A stretch of 64,000 nucleotides of DNA. Source: Lepisosteus oculatus. Its lineage: Eukaryota > Chordata > Actinopteri > Semionotiformes > Lepisosteidae. Below are positions 30,322 through 64,000 of this stretch, one piece after another. Each line of letters starts with the position of its first letter. Within the stretch, counting starts at the first letter, position 1. The notes under the pieces were generated by a model, which saw only the letters and a list, made by a program, of their open reading frames with translations, made no database searches and was not told the origin of the DNA. The stretch is from the NCBI RefSeq assembly GCF_040954835.1, contig NC_090711.1, forward strand, positions 8,563,501 to 8,627,500, in the 5' to 3' direction. A program made the translations under genes and the position numbers.

Positions 30322-33300
30322 CTAATGTGTTTTAGGAACAGGCATACAAGTAGCAGCAAGATCATTAAACTTTGGGCCCAGGTCATGGAGCTGGTCAGAC
30401 ACAAACTCCTGTTCATCAATGGAAATGGGATCAAGTTCTGGGTCACTCATGGGTTCTCCTTCATCAGCATAAATGTGAGGGGGATAGTCATGCAGTTCAT
30501 TGCCATTGCTTTGTAATGAAAGCTGTTGCTGTAAATAAACAATTAAGCACGTTATAATTCTATATAACAGTTTTCCAAAGCAAGTTACTAGTCTAGCTTT
30601 TCTGACTTCAAAAATTATGTTAAAAACCAAATGGAAACTAAAACCTTTACCATTCTCTACCATTAGTAGGATTCTGTTTGTCCTGATATTCCATACGTAA
30701 ATACCTTATAAACAAGAAGAAAAGAGTACAAACTGCAAACATAGAAACATAGTTTTACGTTTATGACAAAGACGATTTTTAGATGGCTTGTACTTAAACG
30801 TTAAAAAAAGGCAGATTGGTAAAACATAATTTAGCGGTTTAAAGAATATAATGTATTTATTTTCTGTATTTCTAGTTGTAAGTAAAATTAATCAGAAACA
30901 CAACTTGTATTGGTCATAATCATTGGTTTACATTTGCAATAATCATGAAGAAATGTGCCTTTGTCATCATTGTTACCTCTTTGATGATTGTTTGCAGTTT
31001 CTCTTTTCTGAAGAAAAGGCCATTGCTTCTCATTCTTGATGAAACTGTTGATCCAGTGTGTGATCTCTGCGAACCCTTTGGGACATAAAATTACATCTGA
31101 AAGTGGAAAACTGGTGCATAATATTTTTTGACATTCTATCATATTAGAGAGTCTTTTTCATGGCAGTTGGAAAGAATGAGATTGCATACAGTACCCTCAA
31201 ATATATTGTATGAGATTTGAAAAACTGTGAGAGATATGTTAGAGGGTTCAACTAACATGTACTAGAAAGTTAGTAAAGGTGGAGGTAGTTTGAAGGTCCT
31301 GTAGGGGGAAATGATCAACTTTAAAAACAGGTACACACAACAGATACATGATGACTCCATTATTTTCTCTGTGCTTCATTATTGCACTAGATTATTGGTG
31401 CACTTACAGCATTGTAATTGCTATGATTTGAGCATTGTGCTAGTTTATTGGTGTAGATGGCATATGTGTTACGCCACACCCCCGGAGAACTTGTAATTCT
31501 ACCTCGCATTCCAGCACGGTTCCCAGTTAGCCCAATTAGAGGTTTGACGGTGATCCTAGCAAGTGTAGGGGCTTTTTAGCTCAGGTATTTCATTTACATC
31601 CAGAAGAATTTTCTATCTCCTAGGGTAAGGTAGCTTTTATTAACTCTTTTTTTTTCTGGAAGGGTTCTTGAATGTACAACTGCACTCTTAGAGTCACAGG
31701 CTCCTGAAATTTCAGATTTTAATCTTTTTCAAGAGACATTAAGAAAGGTATTTCATCACCCCTCCCCGTCTCAGGATGCACCTTCCCGACTGATGGCTTT
31801 GAGGCAGGGCAAGAGGTCAGTGGTGGACTATGCAATGGAAATCCGAGTTATTGCGGCGGAGCTATCCTGAGGTGATGAGTCTTTGATCTTCCTTTTAAAG
31901 CAAGGGCTCTCGGATGCAATTAAAGACAATATGTTTCTCTTGCCTCGTGATCGAATTGTATGACGGGCTTCGCGGTAGAGGATTACGGAGACAAACAGAA
32001 CCTTCCTTTACCTACTCAACCTCCCACTCTCGCTCCCCTCAGTTTGACCCTCGCACCCGCCCCCCGGAACCTATGGAGATTCTACACTCCCGCCTCACTC
32101 CACAGGAAAGGTAGAAGCGCATACGGGAGAATTGTTGTCTTTACTGTGGTCTTCTAGGTCATTACCATTCGGACTGTTCCTCCCGCCCTCCACGGCGCCC
32201 CCTGTCTAAACCCAGTCCCCAGGTGAGACACGATAAACATTTTGCTACCTCTTCTAATGCCTTGTCTATTCCCGCTTCCCTCTCCTGGGACTCGTCTAAA
32301 GTTAATCTTCTCACTTTTATCGATTCAGGGGCCTCCCCTTTCCAGACCCCAGCCTCGGCCCCTACCCCCCAGACCATTCATGGACTCCCAGCATTCACTG
32401 TAAGTATGATCCTGGATTCTCACTGGTTCCGCGGCAGGTAACAATATCTTGTTGATTGGGAGGGCTACAGACCCGCGTATCGCTCCTGGGTTCTCGAAAA
32501 AGGACATTTTGGACCTTCAACTGATTGTTGATTTCTGCCTTCATCTCTGCAATCAATCCTCGGGCGTCAGGAGCCACCCCTGGGAAGGGGGATAATGTTA
32601 TGCCACGCCCCCAGAGGATTCATCATTCCACCTCGCATTCCAGAAAGGTTCCCAATTAGCCTATTTAATGCTGCTTCACACTCAACCCTGTGCTCAGTAT
32701 AAGGGTTTTTCCTGGTTAGAGCTACTTCCATTTTCGCTGGAACTTACTACTTGGTTTTTGGTTTCCTGACCCTGGTTTGTTTTCCGACTGTCTCCTGGCT
32801 TTGGTTTTGGTACTTTGGTTATCGTTCTGGTTTCAACCCTTGGCTTCCATGCGGCTTACGGCTCCACTGCTGGTTTGGTTTTGCACCGACTTGTTTACCT
32901 ACAGCTTTAGGACCTCGGATTGCTATATCGACTACGCCTCTGGAGACTGTTCTGGTGACCCACCATAGAAGTTCTGTGCTAAGAATACTACTTAAACATA
33001 AGATGACTAAATAATATCTTCTGATATAGATATACTGTTAAATATACTAATACAATTTCCAATATCAAAAGTATAGCAGTTTAATTTCTAAATAAATATA
33101 TATGAAAATGAAAACGCCCTTCACTTCCAAAAAACTAAAATGTTACCAGAGACATGCCAGATCTAAACTTCATCCTTTTAATAATCACTGCATTTGAAAG
33201 GTTCTAATAGAGCAAAGCCCTTTAAACTTTAAGATAAAGTGCAGTTTTGATGCCTAATATTAATACTTAATGTTTAGAAAATCAGTAAAGGGTTAATGTT

Positions 33301-36300
33301 TTCCAGTTCATATGTTAACAAATTATTTTTTTTGTATTGTAGACTTACAGATTTTGCTTTTGTTTTACTGTGGTATGTGTGGTACACGCACTTCATAAGC
33401 TCCCTACCAAAATACTCTAATTTGTCTCTATGACAAATATCAGAATTACATTCAAATATGAAAGAGTAAAGCCAATCCAATCCAGTTAAATCAAACATAT
33501 ATGAAATATTTCTTTTAACCAGATTTACAAATGTAAATAAAATGTAATGATCTCTAACAATCATGTAAAGTTTTAGACCTTGAAATCTTTTATTCTTTTC
33601 ATACCATATCTCTGGTTTCCCCCCACTTCTTTTTTACTTTGATTTTATGTACTGTTCTTATGCTTTAATGCACCTGATTTTAGACGACTTTATGTGACTT
33701 TTATGTTTTATTTTGTGTGTGTGTCTAATGTTCGTTGTACTTCTTATGGGAGAAGAAAAGTCAAATTCCCACAGTTGTGGACAGTAAAGTATCTATTTGT
33801 GCACAAAAACACTATGAAATACAAAGGAAATAGTAGAAACTGCTCGTAAAAACAATAACACTTATATATTAACACAATATTTTCAGAACACATTAATTAT
33901 GAACTCTTGATTTTAAAAAATGATATTCAGAGTTAAAAGAGAATACCTACCTTACGCATATAATGGTGATTTTGTTGATGATGTTTATGATGGTATTGAT
34001 TAATGGTTGATTGATAACTTGGATTTCTGTAAATGCTCTGAAAGTGAAACAACAAATAGAAAATCAGCACAAGAAATATTTACTTATGAATGATTGTATA
34101 ATCTATAAGACTAGCTTGTGTTAATATATCATGATTACAGCAATCGAGCAGTGCTTTTGTAAGACAATCTGTCACGGAAGCCAGGGACTAGCCGTGGAGA
34201 GAGACCAGTGAGACAGGAAACCCCTATGTGTAGTGGCAGGAAAAGAGCAAACATGGGGGTTCGGTCCGGGCTCAAGGTATCGGGCAAAGTTGGAACAAGA
34301 CATAAGCCCTCAGGTAGCAGACATGGGGCGACCTTGTAAGGCGAGCCTCTCGACAACCGATCTCAATGCCGAGCAAGGAGGATAGGGAGACCCGGAAATA
34401 TAAAGCCTCAGACAACAAGACACACCGGAAGAAGCACAGGGAAACTAGGAACAGGACAGAGCAGGAGCACCCTCTAGATGTAGATGTAGGTATGACAGTA
34501 CCCTCCCTTCAAGGGCGGCTCCTGATGCCCAAAAAATAAATAAGCTGCACAGCACTGGGAGGAGGAAAAACCTCATTTAACTGAAAGGAAACCTCTGGGA
34601 GTCAACAGCTATGGGCTACCCTCTCCTCCGGGGTAAAAACCTTTATTGAATAGAGGAAGGAGGGGCCAGGTAGGGTTCCAGGGGAGTGAGACAAAAAAAC
34701 AGACAAAACCGCACAACAAGCACGCACAACAAAAAAATACGCCCTGACGGAACAGGGGAACAAACAACACATGAAAATAACTAGAAAAATAGGGAGACCA
34801 GGGAGCATGGTAGCCCAGACCAGAGAGACCAGTGGGCGTGGGAGTCCGGGACAGGGAGACAGCGGGCGTGGAAGCCCAGGACGGGGAGACAGACAAATCA
34901 CACAAACAAATCACACACAAAAATAAACACAAAAGGAAAAGGGAGACAAACAACAATACTAGGGAGAGAGGGAACCAGAAGCCGGGTAGGCCAGGGAACC
35001 AGAAACCAGAGAGGCCAGGAAACCAGAAGCTAGGAAAAAGGACAAGAGAGACTAGGACCAGAACCCAGGGCAGCCAGAAAAACAAAAAACAAGGAACAGA
35101 AGCCAGGGTGGCCAAGAGACCACTGGCGGGGTCCACTGCAAGCTCGGCATTCTATCACGGAAGCCGGGAGGGCTAGCCGTGGAGAAAGTCTGGCAGGACA
35201 GGTGGACCCAATGCGTAGTGTCAGGAACAGAGCAAACACGGGGGTTCGGTCTGGGCTCAAGGTATCGGGCAGTGTCGGAACGAGATATAAGCCTTCAGGT
35301 AGCAGAGGTGGGGAGACCTCGTGAGGTGAGCCTCACGACAACTGATCCAAATGCCGAGCAAGGAGGAAAGGGAGACCTGTAAATATATAGCTCCAGACAA
35401 CAAGACACACCGGAAGAACAAGTAAAGCACAGGGAAACTAGGAACAGGACAGAGCAGGAGCGCCCTTTAGATGTAGAGGGCATGACACAGTCATTTGCTG
35501 ATATCACGATTTTTAAGCTCTCTTCTGCTGAAAACTTATTGTGTACTGGCCAATGAGCTGCTGCTCCACAATGTTCTAACAAATGCAATTAAATCATTTC
35601 GCTGAAGTAGTTGTTAGTAGGGCAGGTGAAATGTTTAACATAGTATTAAGTATTTTTGTAGCTTCTGTCTGTTACAACACATCTAACTAAATACAATTGG
35701 GCATGCAGAGACTTGTATCCCTAGGCATACAAAAGTTGATTTGTACCTGATAAGCATTCTTGTTGTGGAATTGTTGATATATACCAAATGCGTTTTGACC
35801 GTTCACAGCATCAACCTGAGTGGTGTTGATTTGCTGACCTGTATGGGGAACCTTTATAAAGAAAATAAAGGAAGATTAACATATAGTACAGCAATAAAAA
35901 GTTTACATCTTCACAATAAATGGAATATTTAAGTAGGTGTTAGACGGGCAGGTGAAATGTTGCCTGAGTGCTTTTGTTGGTGCAGTTCAGAAAGAACACT
36001 TCTCGTACATCTGCAGAGACCAAGATTCCTGCACCACTGGTCCTGACTCCAGTTTTTCCAACATTTTTATTTCAGGATCCATTAAAAAAGGTGCTGCCTC
36101 CTTGTTTTACATAGTATGAAGTATTTTTGTAGCTTCTGTCTGTTACAACATTTCTAAATAAATACATTTGGGCATGCAGAGACTTGCATCTCTAGGCATA
36201 CAAAAGTTGATTTGTACCTGATAAGCATTCTTGCTGTGGAATTGTTGATATATACCAAATGCGTTTTGACCATTCACAGCATCAACCTGAGTGGTGTTAA

Positions 36301-39300
36301 CTTGCTGACCTGTATGGGGAACCTTTATAAAGAAAATAAAGGAAGATTAACATATTGTACATCAATTAAAAGTTAGCATATTCACAATAAATGGAGTGTT
36401 TAAGCATTTACTACTTTTTATTTGTACATTAAACCCTTGTTGAAAAACTATCTTCAAAGTACCAAAGTAAGCCATGACATCAAAGCACTTCACCACATAC
36501 AAATACATACACACCCTCTTATGTGACTTGCACCTTCAAACACATAGCTGTGGAGCTGGAAGGCATGCAGGTGAATAAGTTGCTTACAGTATGTCACTCA
36601 TTATTCAAGCATAACTACAACTTACGATCCCATGTGCCTGAGGGGTATCCATGATTTAAAGGGGCCATACCACACCATGAAAACAGCTGTCAGTTTCACT
36701 GAACACTCATGAATATTACAAAAGGACATTTGATTAAAATAACTAGGCTTAACATTTTTTTATAAAAAGAACATTATTTATTAAAACTCTGTAGCACAAT
36801 CCTTTCCCCTTTTTAAACCTGAGTGAAAGAGGACAGTGGTTTTAGCTATAGATAAATTGACATTTGTTAATATAGTCAAATTAATTACTATTTTAGAGCC
36901 TTCTGAGACTTTTCTTAACATAGTATTATACACTTCACTTTGAAGTATATCGCTTTTTAATTCAGTTTATTTTATATACCATGCTGTAAATGAAAGAGGA
37001 AACATATAAAACTCACATACTGTATATAATATTTATACAATTTCAGTTTATGTGATAACTTCAGTTTATGTGATAGCTACAGTATGTTTCACTATTTTTT
37101 GGTCTATGTACACAATTGTATAGCATATTAACTTTTTACCAACATTACAGTTATAGCTGTAATTGACGCTACATAATTAATTTCATTATGGACCTAGTAG
37201 AATTTACTTCAAAACAACCCCTTTTCTACTTTTTCTTTTTTTTTTGCTTGCCTTACTTTCAATAGCCCTTGAAGAGTTTAAAACAATTTAAAAGTGAAAT
37301 CTAATGGGAAATATTGACTCAATCTGTATTGCCTCATCATAAAATTTAGGTTATTTTCTTTCAGCGCTCACACATGGTCTAAGTGATTATTATAGATTGT
37401 TGCCTTACCATGCAGTCAGTTCCTGGAGTTTCTGTGTTGGATGTTAGCAAAGTGTTTCCTGCATTGTCATTAATTAATCTGAATTTCTCTTTCTCGCCAG
37501 CAAAAGTTAATGCCAAAAGCAATAACCCTGCAAGCCAAAGAATGGTGAAATATTAGTTTACTAATGAAATACTAATTGTGACAAAAGGGGAATGAGATCA
37601 GTACTATAGGTTTAATTTAGGAGGAAAGCTTTTCTACACATGTACACAACGCCATTTATTTATTTATTTGTCTCTCAATGTTGCAAAAGGTTTTGTGGCA
37701 GCAGGAACCAGCAGCTTCTATTTTCTTTTCTCAAGAAATTTGGTTTAGTAACTAAAACTGGTTTAGCAGTAGCCTGCTGAGTTTAAGGTTTTATGAGAAG
37801 AGAGGACAGCCGGCTCACTGTGTACAACCCAATGACATGTAATGGAATTGAGGACACCCGAGTCCTAGCGTTATGGACTGTATCAGAGAGCGATGATATC
37901 TGCTGGAAACAACTAGATGGTATTAGAGGCTGTGTTGTTAATGCTTTGAAGTCTTAATGGAATAAGAAGACAGCTACAGAAATACAGAATATACTATATA
38001 TAAAATATGAATCTGAAAGAATCTTTCTTACTCAGGGGACAGTTTGATGGGGGGGTACGGGTTGACATTTTGTCTGTATCTCAAAACAATCAGTGCCAGT
38101 ATCCCTGAGGGAGTGGCACCTTGTGCTCATTCAAGCTAATAGTAGCCACCAGAAAATGTGAGACATATCTGAGGTTACCCTAGAGGTAAACAAGACCTGT
38201 AGCTTCTTTTCTTTCTGGATAAGCCTGTTCTTACCTAGAGAAAAGCAATAATGCTCATTCTGTCCAGGAAAAAATATGATATGCTACATAAAGAAGTGGA
38301 ATTGATAACACTGGTCTTTGGGCCATGGGGACTGAAGAGCGGTGCAGTGCTTTTAATGGGACTTCACAACAGTACCTCTAGTGGTAATGTCAACCAACAT
38401 TGGCACAGAAAGATAAAGCAAAGAAGTCTCCTAGTTGACCAGAATAGTGGATTACAGCAATGCCTTTGCACTGTAATGTGTGTGAACCGCATTTGTTGTT
38501 TTCTTGAACTGTGCCTTCTTTTTAATCAAACTATTCAACAAACAAGTTGACATAACAAACACTAGAATGTCTTTGGTGCCAATGTGGGCCAGCTTTAGGG
38601 CTTAAGGTGCCTTGAGCCAAGAGCTTTCCTTTCCTGCAAGCCAATCTAAAAGAACTAGCAGAACAATATCAAGACGACACACAGCAGCATGCCATCAGAA
38701 AAACAACGTTTTGCTGTTGACAGTTTTTCTCCTGATTTGAGTCCAGTAGAGAAAATGGGGGATCAACCATCAAGAGGAAACATCTGCAATCATTGTGGGA
38801 AAAGCTCCCCTAGTTCTGGGTGTGAGAAGATTTGTTCTCCATTGCCCATTTCTGTAGACAGTGCTGTATTTCCAGGTACCAACCAATTACTCATAAAACT
38901 AGTGCACACCATGTTGCTCCATATAGACCTGATGTGGCTATGTAATGCAGTCACTAAGCTTTCTGTAGGACAATCACTTTTGGAGTGCTGGCTACCCCTA
39001 CAATCCTACTAAAGGGTTTTAGACATACAGAACAAATAAAATAAATGCAAAAGGCATTAAAAGAGAAATAGTTAAAACTTATGGGATGAAGTAAAACAAA
39101 ACTGTTTTGCACCTTAATGTTTTGGTGAAACTTTTCATATTCTTTAAAAAAAATTCAGAATTATCAGTCAACATTTTTAATAATTCTGTAATCAGCTCAG
39201 GAATATAATTAGGAATAGTAGGATGTTAACTGCACTCCTTGAAATATATACTATGACTGCCAGGAAAAAACCTTATATAATAATGGTGATTATTCTACAA

Positions 39301-42300
39301 AAAAACATGATCATACCAAGGAATAGAAATAAAACCACAAAGATGATCCCTATGGCACTGGCTCCCATCTGTGCAGCAGGGGATTTCCGGAATCTGCAGT
39401 TTGGTGGTCCTGAACTGACACAGTCACACACTGTCACAGTGAGGTTCTGGACAGAATACTGCTCCTGCTTGTCAAAGATTTTCAAAGACACTTCATACAC
39501 GCCGCTGAAAACATTACTTTCCTTGATGAGATCGACAGAATACCCTATGAAAAAGAACATTATTAAATTACATGCATTTTTGCCTTAGATTATAACGATT
39601 ACTTTAGTAGTCTTGCAGTTACCTCAAACACTGATATAAAAAACTCTTCTCTTCATTTATTCATTCAACATTTACTATTATTAAATATTTACTATTAAAC
39701 ATGTTTTCATCACACATTTTATAACACATTTTAAAGACACAATATACTGTAAATAAAATTAGATGCATGTTAATATTAAGATCAATAGGAAGACAGTGGT
39801 GAAATGTTCCTCTTCAACATTTTTGTCTCTTTAAACAAAGCCCGTTATATGTTAAGGTCATCAATACCTAATGGTTCTAAGAAATCAGAACAAAATTACT
39901 CACTTATGATTTCCTTTTAAATAAGATAAGGGATCTTCGTAATCTAAAAAAAAGGTTTTGGAAACCATACAAACTATACACAATGGCATTCTTTTTGCTT
40001 GATTGTGGTCTGTAAGGTACAGTATATAATGAAGAGATGTACAGTAGTACAACACCTAAATTAAGAAAACTTTTTTAAGTTTTGGGGTTTTACCATAAGA
40101 AGGTTCCAGTCTCCATTTTCCTTTCATTTCTTTCTCATTGATTAGCTGAAAGCGGAAGGGCCCAGAATAGGGATCTGCATCCATATCTATAGCAGTAATA
40201 GTGGTATTTGAAGGTCCACCCTCCAAACACATGTCGATAGTGGTATTTGCCACAGTGGGGGTATTGTCATTCACATCTGATAAGTGGATTTTGAGAGTCC
40301 CAGTGCCTGTCATGGGGGGATTTCCTGTGTATGTAAGAAGAGGGAGATTTCAGTACTTCATACATCAACTGAAAGCGATTTCTAATTTACAGGGACAACC
40401 TTGGAAGCATGTGTACAACAAGAGTGGAATAATTTGAGTGGAATTACTGTACATCACAAGAGTACAATAGCAGTACGATCTGAACTCACACACCTCCAGA
40501 TGGGAGGCCCTAACCATTACTTTGCACTGCCAGCTGCTCACCTACCAACTACTCTGACTGACATCTTGCACCTACATTTTAGTTTCCCTCTTTAAAGAGG
40601 ATTTCTTTCTGAACTACTTTTTTCCTATGCCTACGTCTGTAATCTCTCTATAATCTATATAGGTCTATAATTTCTCAAAACGTAAACTAGTTAATATTGA
40701 AAACTTTTCTCTCTAGTATGTTAATTCAATCAACTTAATATTACCTTTATCAATTGCGTGTATAACTATTGTGTATGTATTATTCACAACGTATGGAGAT
40801 TCTCTGTCCACCTTCTTTATTGTTTTAACTACACCAGTTTTTGGGTCCACAGTTACCCATCCCGCTGGGTCGTTTCCTATCTCATACCTGTTAAATAGAA
40901 GAAGTCCATATTAGTGAAGGAAGATAAATAAGTTCTTCTAAAGACAGCAAGGTACACAAAAATGTCAGTAGGCCTTTCTTCAGTACAATGATGTTTAAAA
41001 TCAAAAATAGTTTAACATACAGCAGATAATATTTAATTTGAAACTTTAAAAAATATCCCCTAAAACTGAACTTCACAAAAATGTTTTCCTTCAACAAAAT
41101 GTAATTACAAATATCACTTTGATTTACAGTAATTTACACCTGTACATTTGTACACAGACATTATTGAATTGAGTTAATAATAGATTGTGTGCAAGTGTCA
41201 GGTAATGTAGACATTACATTATTAAATAGTTTTTTTTAAACAAGGACCTAATAAATATAAAACCTTAAAAATTCGCAAGTAGTATGATACGTTAGAACAT
41301 ACACGAATTCACTGGATAAGCTATCGTCTTGGTCGACTGCTGTGAATGTCTCCAATACATGTCCAATTTCGGTGTTTTCCACCACATAAACATCTTTAAT
41401 TTTAGTTGTGAATTCCGGGGGGTCATTGACATCTTCTACGATGACATCCACTGTCTGCTTTATTAGTGGTGGTAGTTGTCCTTTACTGGAATCATAATGT
41501 TTCACGTCCACATCCCACAGTGTTGTAGGGTTACGTTTCTTTACAATACATGAAAAGTAATCCGCTTCATTCCTCACTGTGATCGACAAGTTCCGTCGAT
41601 TACCGCTTTCATAGTCCAGAGACTGTGATACAAAAAAAAAGAGGTAGAGGACATTGAAGTGTTTCAAAATAATTTTGCTTAAATTTAGAGTATGTGGAAA
41701 ATCCAGGGGTATCCCAGAAGGAGATTATACAAAAGACCTCCAATTTTAATATGAGCTTTACTGATGCACTGCTTGAGAGGCTGACTGGTTTTAGATTTTT
41801 TGGAAAATCTACTACTTTTTATTTGATTTATTGGAAAACCTACAATCTAGGGATGAAGGTATTTAACACAGTAGGTTAACTGTCATCCATTTGTTTACTA
41901 GTGTTGTCCTTGGATTCTGAGCCTTGCATGTCTCTGCAATGCACTGCCTATAAAAGCCTCTTATGACTGATTGTTCACGTAGTGTAACTCCAGAAAATAA
42001 TCAGTTAAGCCTCAGTGTCAACCTGTTTATGCATCTTTCAGTTAGCCTGAACACACAGATGACAGTCTGAAAAACTGAGGATCATCAGTTTTCTTTGTCT
42101 TGTCCATTCTAACATTGCACTGAGTTTTGTAGTTCTTATTATGTGTCTCAAATGTTGAGCTACTCAGCTGTAATCTGGGGTCAGCAATTTAAAGTTATCG
42201 TTGTTTGTCAGCTGCTGGTGGAAAAAGAGGTGTTTTTCTTTCAAATGTTTTGTTTTTCACCCAAAGGTGCATGGTAGGCAACCTCTCACACAGGATGCTT

Positions 42301-55060: not shown

Positions 55061-55332
55061 GCGTCATCCCTGAGCTTTGAGGTTCCAGAGTTCCACAGGC
55101 TTTGTCCCTGGGCCTCAAGGTTCCAGACTTCCACTGGTCTCGACCCTGAGCCTCGGGGTTCCAGACTTCCACTGGTCTCGTCACTGAGCCTCGAGGTTCC
55201 AGAGTTCCACAGGCTTTGTCCCTGAGCCTCAAGGTTCCAGACTTCCACTGGTCTCATCCCTGAGCCTCGAGGTTCCAGACTTCCACTGGTCCCATCCCTG
55301 AGCCTCGAGGTTCCAGACTTCCACTGGTCTCC
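55061..55332. repeat. Minisatellite, about seven copies of a 38-bp unit
   Basis: GGTTCCAG recurs exactly every 38 bp at 55081, 55119, 55157, 55195, 55233, 55271 and 55309. A partial unit precedes them. Two subtypes alternate: AGAGTTCCACAGGCTTTG (A) and AGACTTCCACTGGTCTC (B), in the order A-B-B-A-B-B-B. Three units make 114 bp, a multiple of three. That is why long repetitive minus-strand frames stay open; they are not genes. Confidence 0.93.
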
Positions 55333-58990: not shown

Positions 58991-59541
58991 TGTAACAGGA
59001 GCCAGTCCAGGCTCCCGTGAAACGTAGTTCAGGACCCTATGCAGATGGTATAATCCGGAAGTAAGTGGAGAAGGACGACAGGGAAAAGACGTAGAGGATC
59101 AGGATAGGTCGACAGACAAGGGGGCAGTGTTCCAGTGCTTGGGGGGCGTGGCGCAGGCAAACAAGTCCAAACAGTCCAAGGGGGAAATCCGGGCGCAGTC
59201 CAGGATCCAGGAACCGGGAGAACCATCAGAGACAGACGAGACTAAACTCCGGAACTGGATCCGGAACAGGAACAGGGAATTAAAAAACAGGATAACTAGG
59301 CCAGATGCTCCGAGCACCAGTCTCAGATGGTCAGGATTTCGTGATGAAGCCTATGCCGTCGGGTCTCTCCTGAACACACTGGTAGGCGGGCTTCCGGGCG
59401 TCCATCTCCTAGTGCTGAGCCAGGAATAGCAGGAGCCCCAGGCTTAAATAATGACAGACTTAATGAGGGGCAGGTGCATGTAATAAAGGAAAATCCAAAA
59501 GGGTTGGAGCACCCTTGAGAGGAGGGATAACGATCCTGACA
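58991..59541 (-). mobile_element. Solo LTR (551 bp) directly past the stop codon of gene B
   Basis: Plus-strand ends are TGTAACAGGA and GATCCTGACA. Perfect GTATC repeats flank it at 58986-58990 and 59542-59546. A minus-strand TATTTAAGCC box suggests transcription in the same direction as gene B. It is a different family from the TGTCACGCCC LTRs. The stop codon of gene B ends at 59551, so only four bases separate it from the target duplication. The open frames inside are not genes. Confidence 0.88.
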
Positions 59542-59550
59542 GTATCATTT

Positions 59551-62500
59551 TCAATTATTTTGCCTCAGTGTTTTTAGGCTGGACATACAAATCGTAGCAA
59601 GATTAATAAATCTTGGGCCCAGGTCATTGAGCTGGTCAGACACAAACTCCTGTTCATCAATGGAAATGGCATCTAGTTCTGGGTCACTCATGGGTTCTCC
59701 TTCATCAGCATAAATGTGAGGGGGATAGTCATGCAGTTCATTGCCATTGCCTTGGATTAACAGTACTTTCTGTAAGTAAACAAATGAAAATTACAACTTT
59801 AATTATCAATAAATGTCAGTTTGCAAAGAAATCTAGTTTTTCTGAATTAAAGTTTTGCAGTTACACTTTATCTAGCAACCCTAATTTGCATCACTCCCAA
59901 CAAAAATATATTTCTAATATATTACTAAACTGTTAAACAGTTATACGCTGTTTTCCCTTAAATAGTTGTCCTTTACATACTCAACTGATTTCACAGGAGG
60001 AAAGCAATCCTACTTTTTTATTGAATTGAATTTTACTATTTGTTTAATGCAGTAAAATAAATAAAAAGTTTCTCTTGTGTAGTTTATTTTCTTTATTTGC
60101 AATGACAGTGTCAGTAAAGCATCTGCATGAATTTTGAACCAATGCGTCAGTGCAGTCCTTACTTACCTTATTAATTTTAGCTTTCATTTTCATCCTTTCT
60201 ATGTTTATGCTTTTTGTCAACACTGTTTGTTGGCTCCACTCTGATCCCTTGTGGGTATAAAAAACTGATTTAATATGGGAAGTCAGTACATCAGAAAGCA
60301 CCAGCTGTGCTCAGTCATGTTTGACAATCTTGGTTTGTACAGTATTTCACCTACTTAAAAAGTGATATAATAATGCCTCTAGAAAAAAAGTATTATTGCC
60401 TTTTGAAATATTCTAAAATGATATCTGGACTATTTATAATTATATTAAAGGAATATTTAATGCTATATCATAAACTTTTAAGACTAGCCAATCCCTGCAG
60501 ATAACACACCAGATGTAGTGCCCCAGCACAGTGAGGTAGCAATGCTAATTACTGCACAACCATGCCATCCCAGTGTAGCATTATATTTATAACATACATA
60601 TAACTTCGTATAACTTCACAGGTACTGTACATACATGATACATAGCTACACTTTTATAGGACTGTTTTATAGGATTGTTTTTGCTTAAAAATAATTAAAA
60701 AATAATTTTCCATCAGATATTTAATGGATTCCACAGGAAACAACCAATTTTTTACATCCTTAGTTTATTTTATTTGCAGTGCTGTTATCAGTAAGGCCTC
60801 AACCCTGAGCACTCGGGATTTGTATGAATGTCATAATACAAATACGTACCATCTGACTGTAATGATGCACTTGTTGCCCTATCTTGGAGAACTGGTTATT
60901 GCTTTGACTTCTATGAATATTCACATTCTGAATAAAAAATGAAAAAGTTACCACCATGAACAGAAAAGAGATTGTCGTGACCTAAAAAATAGCATATGAC
61001 TTGAAATGTACTCTTAATCTTAATAAACAGATCATGCAAATCAAGTGTTTCTATAAAACGTGTTCACATACTGACATAGGAACTCTTCTGTTGTGTGGAT
61101 CACATGAACTACATTTCCAGATAGTTTGATAAACACAAAGAAAGCCTTAGATCTATGTTAAAAAAGTCAATTTCTAATGAGAACAAAAAATCTTTGGACA
61201 TGTATTGAACTAGATCCTTAAGGATAAAAGAAAACTGATACAGGATAAACACCTGGAAAAACAGATAAGTACCTGAACAAAAATATTTTTGTGTGCCTGC
61301 CCATAATAATTTTTCACATGCTGATTATTTGTAGCATCTGCTTCAGTCATTTGGAATTTCTGTGCTGTATTTGGAACCTTAATAAAGAAAGAAGAAACGT
61401 TACTTCACAATAAAGGGAATGGATAAAAGTAAATATTTTTCTGATGTTTATTTTAATCAAGTACCATTAAAAGCCTCATATCCAAAACATTTAAAATGGA
61501 AATTGTATAATGTGTTAATGACCTAGGTAAGCCAACACTTAAGTTCCTCACCATAGTCAGAGAATATGACCCTGCTAAACTGACTTGTGACTTACAGTTA
61601 ATCACTTCCAATGAAAGTGGTAGCCAAGCTAAGGGAGAGAGATACAATCCAGATATTCTCAGGTTTTATTTCACTCAATATTCCCTCTGGTTGATGAGTT
61701 AAAAGGACACACCATGCCACAAATTGAACCTTCATTTAACTATCATTTAATATATATTTGTAATATAACATAAGTGTAAGCAACTCCTCTTGGAATATAC
61801 TGTATGGAGTTCTTCTATGACGTGTTTGACATTTCTGTAGTCAGAAAATTTACTGAAATGCAAGTAACAATTATCTGTGAAATCAAAACATAATTTAAAG
61901 CCATTTGTATCTGAAAGGAGTGAATCTGAAGAGGAGACGTCTTGCCCTAATTTCTACAAATGAGAAATACAATCATAAACTGGCATTTACAAAATTAGAC
62001 AAAACCTTATCTCCAGGTGAGGGTTTCAAAGGCCTTTCACAGAGCACTAGACACCTACTTTTCAAATGTGGTCTAGGGTATAATATGCTTACCGTGCAGT
62101 CAGTCCCTGGTGTTTCGATGTTAGATTTTATGAAAGTATTTGTTGAATCATCATCTAAGATCATGAATGATTTCTTCACCCCACATGTTAGAAAACCCAA
62201 AAGTAATAACCCTGGAAATCCAAAAAGGGGAAAGAATTGTTTTATTGATAATAGAAAATCAGGCCAGTGGTGATGATTTAGCGTCTCTTTGTAAGTTGAT
62301 ATTTGTTTGTTTCATAGTGTAGCTCATGTTTCAGTATTTCAAGCAACCTGCCTGTGGGAGTTCTGTGCGGATTAAGAGAAGAGGACGGAGGACTGACTGT
62401 GAAAGGGGTGCAGCAAATTCTAGTATAATGCTAACGTGAGTTCTGGAGTGATAATGTACATTAAAAGCATGGTGATGCTGCAGGATTGTTAATGGGATGA

Positions 62501-63816
62501 AACAACAGCATGAGATTTCTACAATATAAGAATATGGTAAGAAGAGGCTATCAGAACTAATTGTTTTCGTTCTTCAGTTACAGGGAAACCACCATTTTGC
62601 TACATGGAATATGGATTGATTACAAAAAAGACAAAACTATTAATATGTAATTAATATCTCTCTACTGTCCCTGGCACTGCATCTCACGAGATGCCTTTTC
62701 CAAAGATCAACTCAAAACTCTCTTTTGGGTCTTTGTTAAACCACTGCCTTGTCCTGTTGAATTGGAAGCAATCTGCCTCATCTTATCATGGTCACTGCAT
62801 TGCATTAGATAAAGACAAAAATGATTCCAAATGAAAAGATGCTATTGAGCCAAATTTGCTTAGTTGGTAATTCAGTTGCTTAAAGTACGTCTAACATCTG
62901 GATAAACGGTTTCACGAACAGCACATACTTTGGGCGTCAGAACCTGGGTGAGAAACTTTTCCAGTTACATGTAACTCTTTTAACAACGTGTTTCCAGTTT
63001 TAGATCATAAATGGATTCCCTTTTAGTTTCCACTTGTGTTCTGTTCTCCTTGTTTTTCCATTCAGTGAGAAATAGTTCCCTGATTGTTTACTTATTTTAT
63101 TGATCCAGCACACTATCTTGATGAAGGCAAAACAAGAATTTGTGTAAACAAAGGGATACTTTTCATACTTACTGTTTTCTGAAATCTCGGAATCACCCAG
63201 AGATGTTAAGTATGTTTCTCCTTCCTGTGTGAACATTTTTTTCTGTGTATTCTTCTAGTATGGCTCTCAATGTCTGTCTGACAACTGAAGTTGTACAGCT
63301 GAGTACAACTGAAATAATAACTTTTATTTCTTTTACTCAAATGTATGGTATTCATTTTGACAGTGGATTCATTTTCTATTTCTCTGTTTTTAAATATAAA
63401 TATAAAAAATAACCTAAAGATAGAAGAAACATATGTTCAGGAGCCGACTGAGTACATTAGACTTGTATCATTAATAGAATATGCAATAGATGTTTTAAAA
63501 ATACCCATTTTGAGGAACAGAACATGAGCTATCACAACAAGATAAGCAATAAACTATGGAATGTAATGTCTTGTAAAAATTCCCATACCCAGTAGAAGAA
63601 ATAAGGATGCAAATATGATCCCTATGGCACTGCCACCCATCTGTGTAGCAGGGGATTTCCGGAATCTGCAGTTTGCTGGTCCTGAACTGACACAGTCACA
63701 CACTGTCACAGTGAGGTTCTGGATAGAATACTGCTCCTGCTTGTCAAAGATTTTCAAAGACACTTCATACACGCCACTGAAAACATCACTTTCCTTGATG
63801 AGATCGACAGAGTGCC
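59551..63816 (-). CDS. cdh26: Cadherin-26-like protein, gene B, 3' half (5' part outside the window)
   Basis: Exons seen, 5' to 3': 63816-63589, 62211-62093, 61377-61273, 60927-60850, 60247-60167 and 59769-59551. They match gene A exons 11, 12, 13, 15, 16 and 17 in order and phase; four are the same length or nearly so (228, 119, 105 and 78 against 87). Encoded are the membrane-proximal domain end (HSVDLIKESDVFSGVYEVSL, VCDCVSSGPANC), the helix across the first two exons, and a tail ending with the conserved YPPHIYADEGEP segment and a different last few residues (SSLKTLRQNN). About 275 residues are visible. No further exon is seen from 63817 to 64000, so the extracellular part lies to the right. 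There is one copy of the exon that is duplicated in gene A. The reading frame is intact, so the gene looks functional. The 3' UTR is interrupted by a solo LTR. Confidence 0.85.
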
Positions 63817-64000
63817 CTGCATCAAAGAACAGGCATGAAAATTACCATTTAAATCAATAACAGACTTCAAAGAGATTATCCATCATTTATCCAAATCTAT
63901 ATCAGAACTCATGTCAAAATTGCCTCACACAAGTGATGAAAAAATGGATTCATTCTCTGTTTGCACTCAGTTACCCATGTATACCTTTTTTAAAAATAGA

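Follow-up and report, generated by a model that had tools for sequence, protein, structure and literature searches.

Tandem duplication of a cytoplasmic-tail exon in a cadherin-26-like gene of Lepisosteus oculatus

Tandem exon duplication is a well-known kind of change, found in about 10% of animal genes according to an earlier study's figure quoted in PMC9013439. We describe here a true and ordinary case in Lepisosteus oculatus, in a stretch of 64,000 nucleotides (nt) on contig NC_090711.1 (assembly GCF_040954835.1, positions 8,563,501 to 8,627,500 of the forward strand; hereafter the window). A cadherin-26-like gene on its minus strand, gene A, carries two near-identical, intact and adjoining copies of one small exon of its cytoplasmic tail, named 35a and 35b; its tandem paralogue is named gene B. 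Like tandem duplicated exons in general, 35a and 35b are adjacent, homologous, and equal in length and phase, with splice sites and frame intact. There is no difference in kind, and what is particular is the gene and the part concerned, the tail of a cadherin.

PMC5809386 describes human CDH26 as an atypical cadherin with variably spliced transcripts, located on 20q13.33, and reports that CDH26A co-precipitated with actin, possibly via another partner, and not with the three catenins tested. The locus described here resembles human CDH26 in its cadherin domains, membrane span, cytoplasmic tail and a nearby H3 receptor-like gene; it differs in that a pair of genes stands in tandem, of which gene A has a tail exon twice (the human tail exons were not compared). 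In Fugu, clustered protocadherins show near-identical stretches with raised GC content at third codon positions (GC3), which PMC1852091 reads as regional gene conversion. Genes A and B share with them the tandem arrangement of cadherin-family genes, near-identical beside diverged stretches, and a GC3 raised in the alike parts; unlike them, only two genes are present in the window, and here stretches at both tail ends are alike and the middle has diverged. Clustered protocadherins also share constant exons, whereas genes A and B each own their tail exons. Among the literature listings covered, none paired CDH26 with exon duplication or cadherin-26, by that name, with teleosts (papers mentioning CDH26 and zebrafish do exist), and, judged by title, none of those listed concerned a duplicated cadherin cytoplasmic-tail exon. 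A viral-contig scan for relatives gave 13 pattern matches, none of which was a relative.

Two copies of a 105-nt exon

The upstream copy, 35a, lies at 36218..36322 (105 nt, phase 0, VPHTGQQVNTTQVDAVNGQNAFGIYQQFHSKNAYQ) and the downstream copy, 35b, at 35747..35851 (105 nt, phase 0, VPHTGQQINTTQVDAVNGQNAFGIYQQFHNKNAYQ), both on the minus strand. They differ at 4/105 nt (101/105 identical), changing exactly two of 35 residues, V8I and S30N. Both have AG/GT borders, an open frame and no lesion, and their splice sites are the same, with the acceptor ...TTTATAAAG/GTT and the donor CAG/GTACAA (slashes mark exon borders). The original prediction, made from the DNA letters alone, had claimed a tandem duplication of a tail exon with both copies intact and about two residues apart, and our analysis bore this out.

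When 4.2 kilobases (kb) were searched for repeats (33800-38000), the exon pair with its surroundings was the longest direct repeat (300 nt, 93%, spacing 471); similarity of this extent is expected to lie far beyond chance. A second stretch common to both units, 35605-35635 and 35931-35961, is 90% alike with a spacing of 326. The two spacings thus define a unit of 326 base pairs (bp), with 145 bp extra in the upstream unit, close to the predicted blocks of about 325 bp and insert of about 140 bp. On the minus strand the upstream unit covers 35931..36401 (471 bp, that is 326 bp plus the insert) and the downstream unit 35605..35930 (326 bp), with edges uncertain by about 3 bases; the 145-nt stretch of the upstream unit occupies 35959..36103, its ends uncertain by at most 4 bases. 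Over 299 ungapped positions (spacing 471) the units differ at 20, of which eight fall in the 5' intron part (8/79), four in the exon (4/105) and eight in the 3' intron part (8/115), giving 16/194 for the introns together. By eye, CTT is common to both unit edges, as left by joining at short homology. A mobile element as the origin of the 145-nt insert found no support, since the insert does not recur elsewhere in the window (the nearest alternative match spans 20 nt, E 0.024). AACA can be read by eye at either end of the insert, so that loss of 145 nt from the other unit fits as well as insertion.

The reading frame is preserved with two, one or zero copies of the exon, as had been predicted. 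Together with the 366-nt intron separating 35a from 35b, this makes splicing of both in series physically possible. The encoded segment is polar and rich in N and Q. It carries YQQF, which is hence present twice in gene A and absent from gene B's counterpart exon. The tyrosine-based sorting pattern is YXX followed by a bulky hydrophobic residue, which YQQF fits, and NPSY in gene A's following exon conforms to the NPXY pattern. As short patterns of this sort are common by chance, we would give both little weight.

Gene B has a single copy, as originally claimed, in the form of a 105-nt, phase-0 exon at 61273..61377 on the minus strand that is open and has splice sites. It is identical to 35a and to 35b at 13/35 residues each (41% over 34 with one gap in a local tblastn). 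Apart from these three exons, the best rows listed by tblastn across the window had E >1, giving no sign of another copy. The same exon in gene B at this level of identity suggests a real coding exon that is probably older than the split between the two genes. Scored with a donor matrix, the donor of 35a and 35b reached 3.9 bits and that of the gene B counterpart 5.2, compared with 7.2-12.5 for the remaining five internal exons identified in the two tails. In either gene, no identified tail exon has a weaker donor than the 105-nt one. Being small, symmetric and weak at its donor in both paralogues, this exon resembles one that undergoes occasional skipping.

Age of the duplication and competing explanations

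The best explanation of the whole, to which we give a probability of about 0.6, is a single duplication whose copies are included in series with some skipping and which is tolerated in a little-constrained middle tail. An old 105-nt symmetric (phase 0-0) exon would have become two copies through one 326-bp tandem duplication in the tail region of gene A, after its split from gene B. Most messenger RNAs would carry both copies one after the other, lengthening by 35 residues a middle tail that is polar and probably unstructured. The weak donor would let some transcripts skip one or both copies, and the distance from the membrane to the C-terminal end would vary in 35-residue steps. Tolerance of the duplication may stem from weak constraint on the middle tail and its fast evolution, while gene conversion would most likely have kept large parts of the membrane exon and of the last exon near-identical in the two genes. 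Judged from sequence features, both copies are probably used, and a variable tail length is possible.

Synonymous divergence between 35a and 35b is 0.10 (2/21.2 sites) and non-synonymous divergence 0.024 (2/83.8). As the former is about that of the flanking introns, plain divergence after one duplication would suffice. Set against the split of genes A and B, the duplication is young (synonymous 0.10 versus about 1.3), yet not freshly made. Placing it after that split is simpler than the alternative, in which gene B lost a copy and conversion masked the age. An older duplication with copies homogenised by gene conversion between 35a and 35b seems rather improbable, even if the unit shows more likeness in its middle than at its edges and conversion is apparently at work close by, between genes A and B. 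Permutation of the mismatches (2,000 per window size) gave p values of 0.19, 0.05, 0.03 and 0.05 for window sizes of 100, 150, 170 and 190 nt, uncorrected for the four sizes; the support thus comes from the larger sizes and is lost at 100 nt. Moreover, synonymous divergence of the exon is not below intron divergence, and the alike middle also contains the exon and its splice signals, where selection can act, so we consider the evidence for conversion between the copies weak. The original prediction had called the pair either recent or kept homogeneous. Recency holds, and only relative to the split of the two genes, while homogenisation fared poorly (p 0.03-0.19), leaving its interpretation partly supported overall.

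That one copy or both are unused, a passively retained duplicate, is a minority reading that we nevertheless take seriously. It has to reckon with the lack of lesions in 35a and 35b, with the open counterpart and splice sites retained by gene B, and with changes that lean away from amino-acid replacement: two fell at about 84 non-synonymous sites versus 18 at about 215 intron and synonymous sites (Fisher p 0.07), by which constraint on the protein of the exon copies is hinted at, not shown. Several results count against our preferred explanation at this point. Neither this test nor the comparison of exon with intron (p 0.22) gives significant purifying selection on the copies, and two or fewer non-synonymous changes among the four in the exon would be seen with a probability of 0.18 without selection. 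A neutral simulation (substitutions only) kept both frames and the splice dinucleotides in 50% of 20,000 runs, so that intactness is no proof of use; the weak donor likewise favors an unused copy.

We regard it as unlikely that 35a and 35b are mutually exclusive alternatives, with one per transcript. A docking site has the geometry of one stretch able to pair with both exon copies, as could the 15 nt at 35024-35038, whose complementarity to the 3' intron parts of 35a and 35b is 87%; this pairing is one of 17 inverted pairs listed in the 4.2 kb and probably due to chance. Three known causes of exclusivity are frame loss, a too-short intron and incompatible splice types. All three are absent here, as joint inclusion keeps the frame, the separating intron is not too short and both copies are GT-AG. 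Choosing between peptides that differ at 2/35 residues would also change little. PMC9741552 states that exon duplication is common whereas duplicated copies are not commonly spliced in a mutually exclusive way, which weighs further against exclusivity. An assembly error, in which a single locus or its pair of alleles was recorded as two, is very improbable. Near-identical tandem blocks are a known assembly trouble spot, and the blocks of 35a and 35b are of this type, but 20/299 differing sites and a 145-nt indel exceed the usual allelic difference, and the 16/194 differences in the flanking introns make an artefact unlikely.

Alike ends and a diverged middle in the tails of genes A and B

The tail exons of gene A, all on the minus strand, have AG and GT at their intron borders; the gene model is partial, and further small exons may lie in its introns. 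The membrane-proximal and transmembrane exon stretch (39312..39559) is 90% identical to 63584-63831 of gene B (248 nt). Before the duplicated pair stands an exon of 119 nt at 37409..37527, with the end of the membrane span and the tail start, and after it the NPSY-holding exon at 33951..34037 (87 nt, SIYRNPSYQSTINQYHHKHHQQNHHYMRK) and the last coding exon at 30322..30528 (207 nt, ends TAG), whose core, 30372-30509, is almost identical to gene B. Gene B is only partly within the window, and its extracellular part, which lies outside, was not compared. Besides its 105-nt exon, its minus-strand tail has exons at 62093..62211 (119 nt) and 60850..60927 (78 nt), a candidate extra exon at 60167..60247 (81 nt, phase 0) and the last coding exon at 59551..59769 (219 nt, ends TGA). 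No convincing counterpart of the 81-nt exon was found in gene A: the best non-self match in the window has E 1.0, and the corresponding intron of gene A yields nothing better than E 8.8 and 19.

Going beyond the original prediction, genes A and B form a mosaic. Their synonymous divergence is 0.20 (9/51.3 sites) in the membrane exon and 0.23 (8.5/42.8) in the last exon, versus 0.96 (14.2/26.2) and 1.33 (12.75/20.5) in two exons between these ends. In rounded counts this is 18/94 versus 27/47 (p 8e-6), with the 87/78-nt exon pair left out, being saturated and alignable only with a gap. Within the last exon, 30372-30509 of gene A and 59613-59750 of gene B show 3 mismatches in 138 nt, while the other 42 of the 180 compared nt hold 16. 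None of 20,000 permutations was as extreme, and one of the three core mismatches is synonymous. The introns flanking the alike stretches hardly align between the genes. GC3 was 55/112 in the alike stretches (gene A only) versus 79/230 in the middle exons (both genes, 35b dropped; p 0.01), and in the last-exon stretch alone it was 19/45, hardly above the middle exons. Gene conversion most likely held stretches at both tail ends alike around a private middle with the duplicated exon; strong constraint on the alike coding stretches themselves could also account for the pattern.

The cadherin profile PF00028 (cut-off 28.8) matched all four open reading frame (ORF) pieces of gene A that were scanned, with 30.7 bits in one, over the cut-off, and 24.1, 17.7 and 14.5 in the other three. 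Gene A is by these matches a cadherin, and the profile does not say which one. On the tail end PF01049 (cut-off 24) stayed below its cut-off in gene B (17.2 bits, E 0.0053) and in gene A (13.3 bits, E 0.09), and gene A also matched the unrelated RctB_central (E 0.079) in the same scan; the tail end may thus weakly resemble a classical cadherin tail. Against solved structures the last exon had one match, a deblocking aminopeptidase (E 0.012), which was taken as chance. The name cadherin-26 is tentative and draws on the neighboring gene, which is histamine H3 receptor-like, HRH3 being located near CDH26. This neighbor is seen as a fragment at 8289-7459, a minus-strand exon encoding a G protein-coupled receptor whose best match in solved structures is the histamine H3 receptor (E 3.7e-80); alongside the cadherin genes, it indicates vertebrate DNA.

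Several repeats surround these exons. At 34169-35487, within the intron that follows 35b, lie two direct repeats that look like a short element flanked by long terminal repeats (LTRs); each is about 330 bp long, their matched parts are 84-96% alike at a distance of about 990 bp, and the duplicated block begins some 120 bp away. On the plus strand at 31634-32438, ORF pieces resemble by eye a retroelement gag with a zinc-knuckle-like stretch. A solo LTR-like stretch of 551 bp (58991-59541, TGTCAGG...TGTTACA, GATAC on both sides) begins about 10 nt past the gene B stop codon, and a tandem repeat of seven 38-bp units (also 114-bp units) lies between the two genes at 55065-55331.

Implications for the cadherin tail

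The case presents a clean exon duplication that preserves the frame within an adhesion receptor's tail, and for which the single-copy paralogue serves as a control. If transcripts hold zero, one or two copies, they would provide a natural test of membrane-to-C-terminal spacing in an atypical cadherin. A broader and speculative view, which we hold to be doubtful, is that the middle tail of cadherin-26 is a cassette zone, where small phase-0 exons turn over by duplication, loss and fast divergence, and conversion between the tandem paralogues keeps the membrane anchor and the C-terminal core alike. If this were true, the number of 35-residue modules would tune tail length and motifs (YQQF, NPSY) per gene and per transcript.
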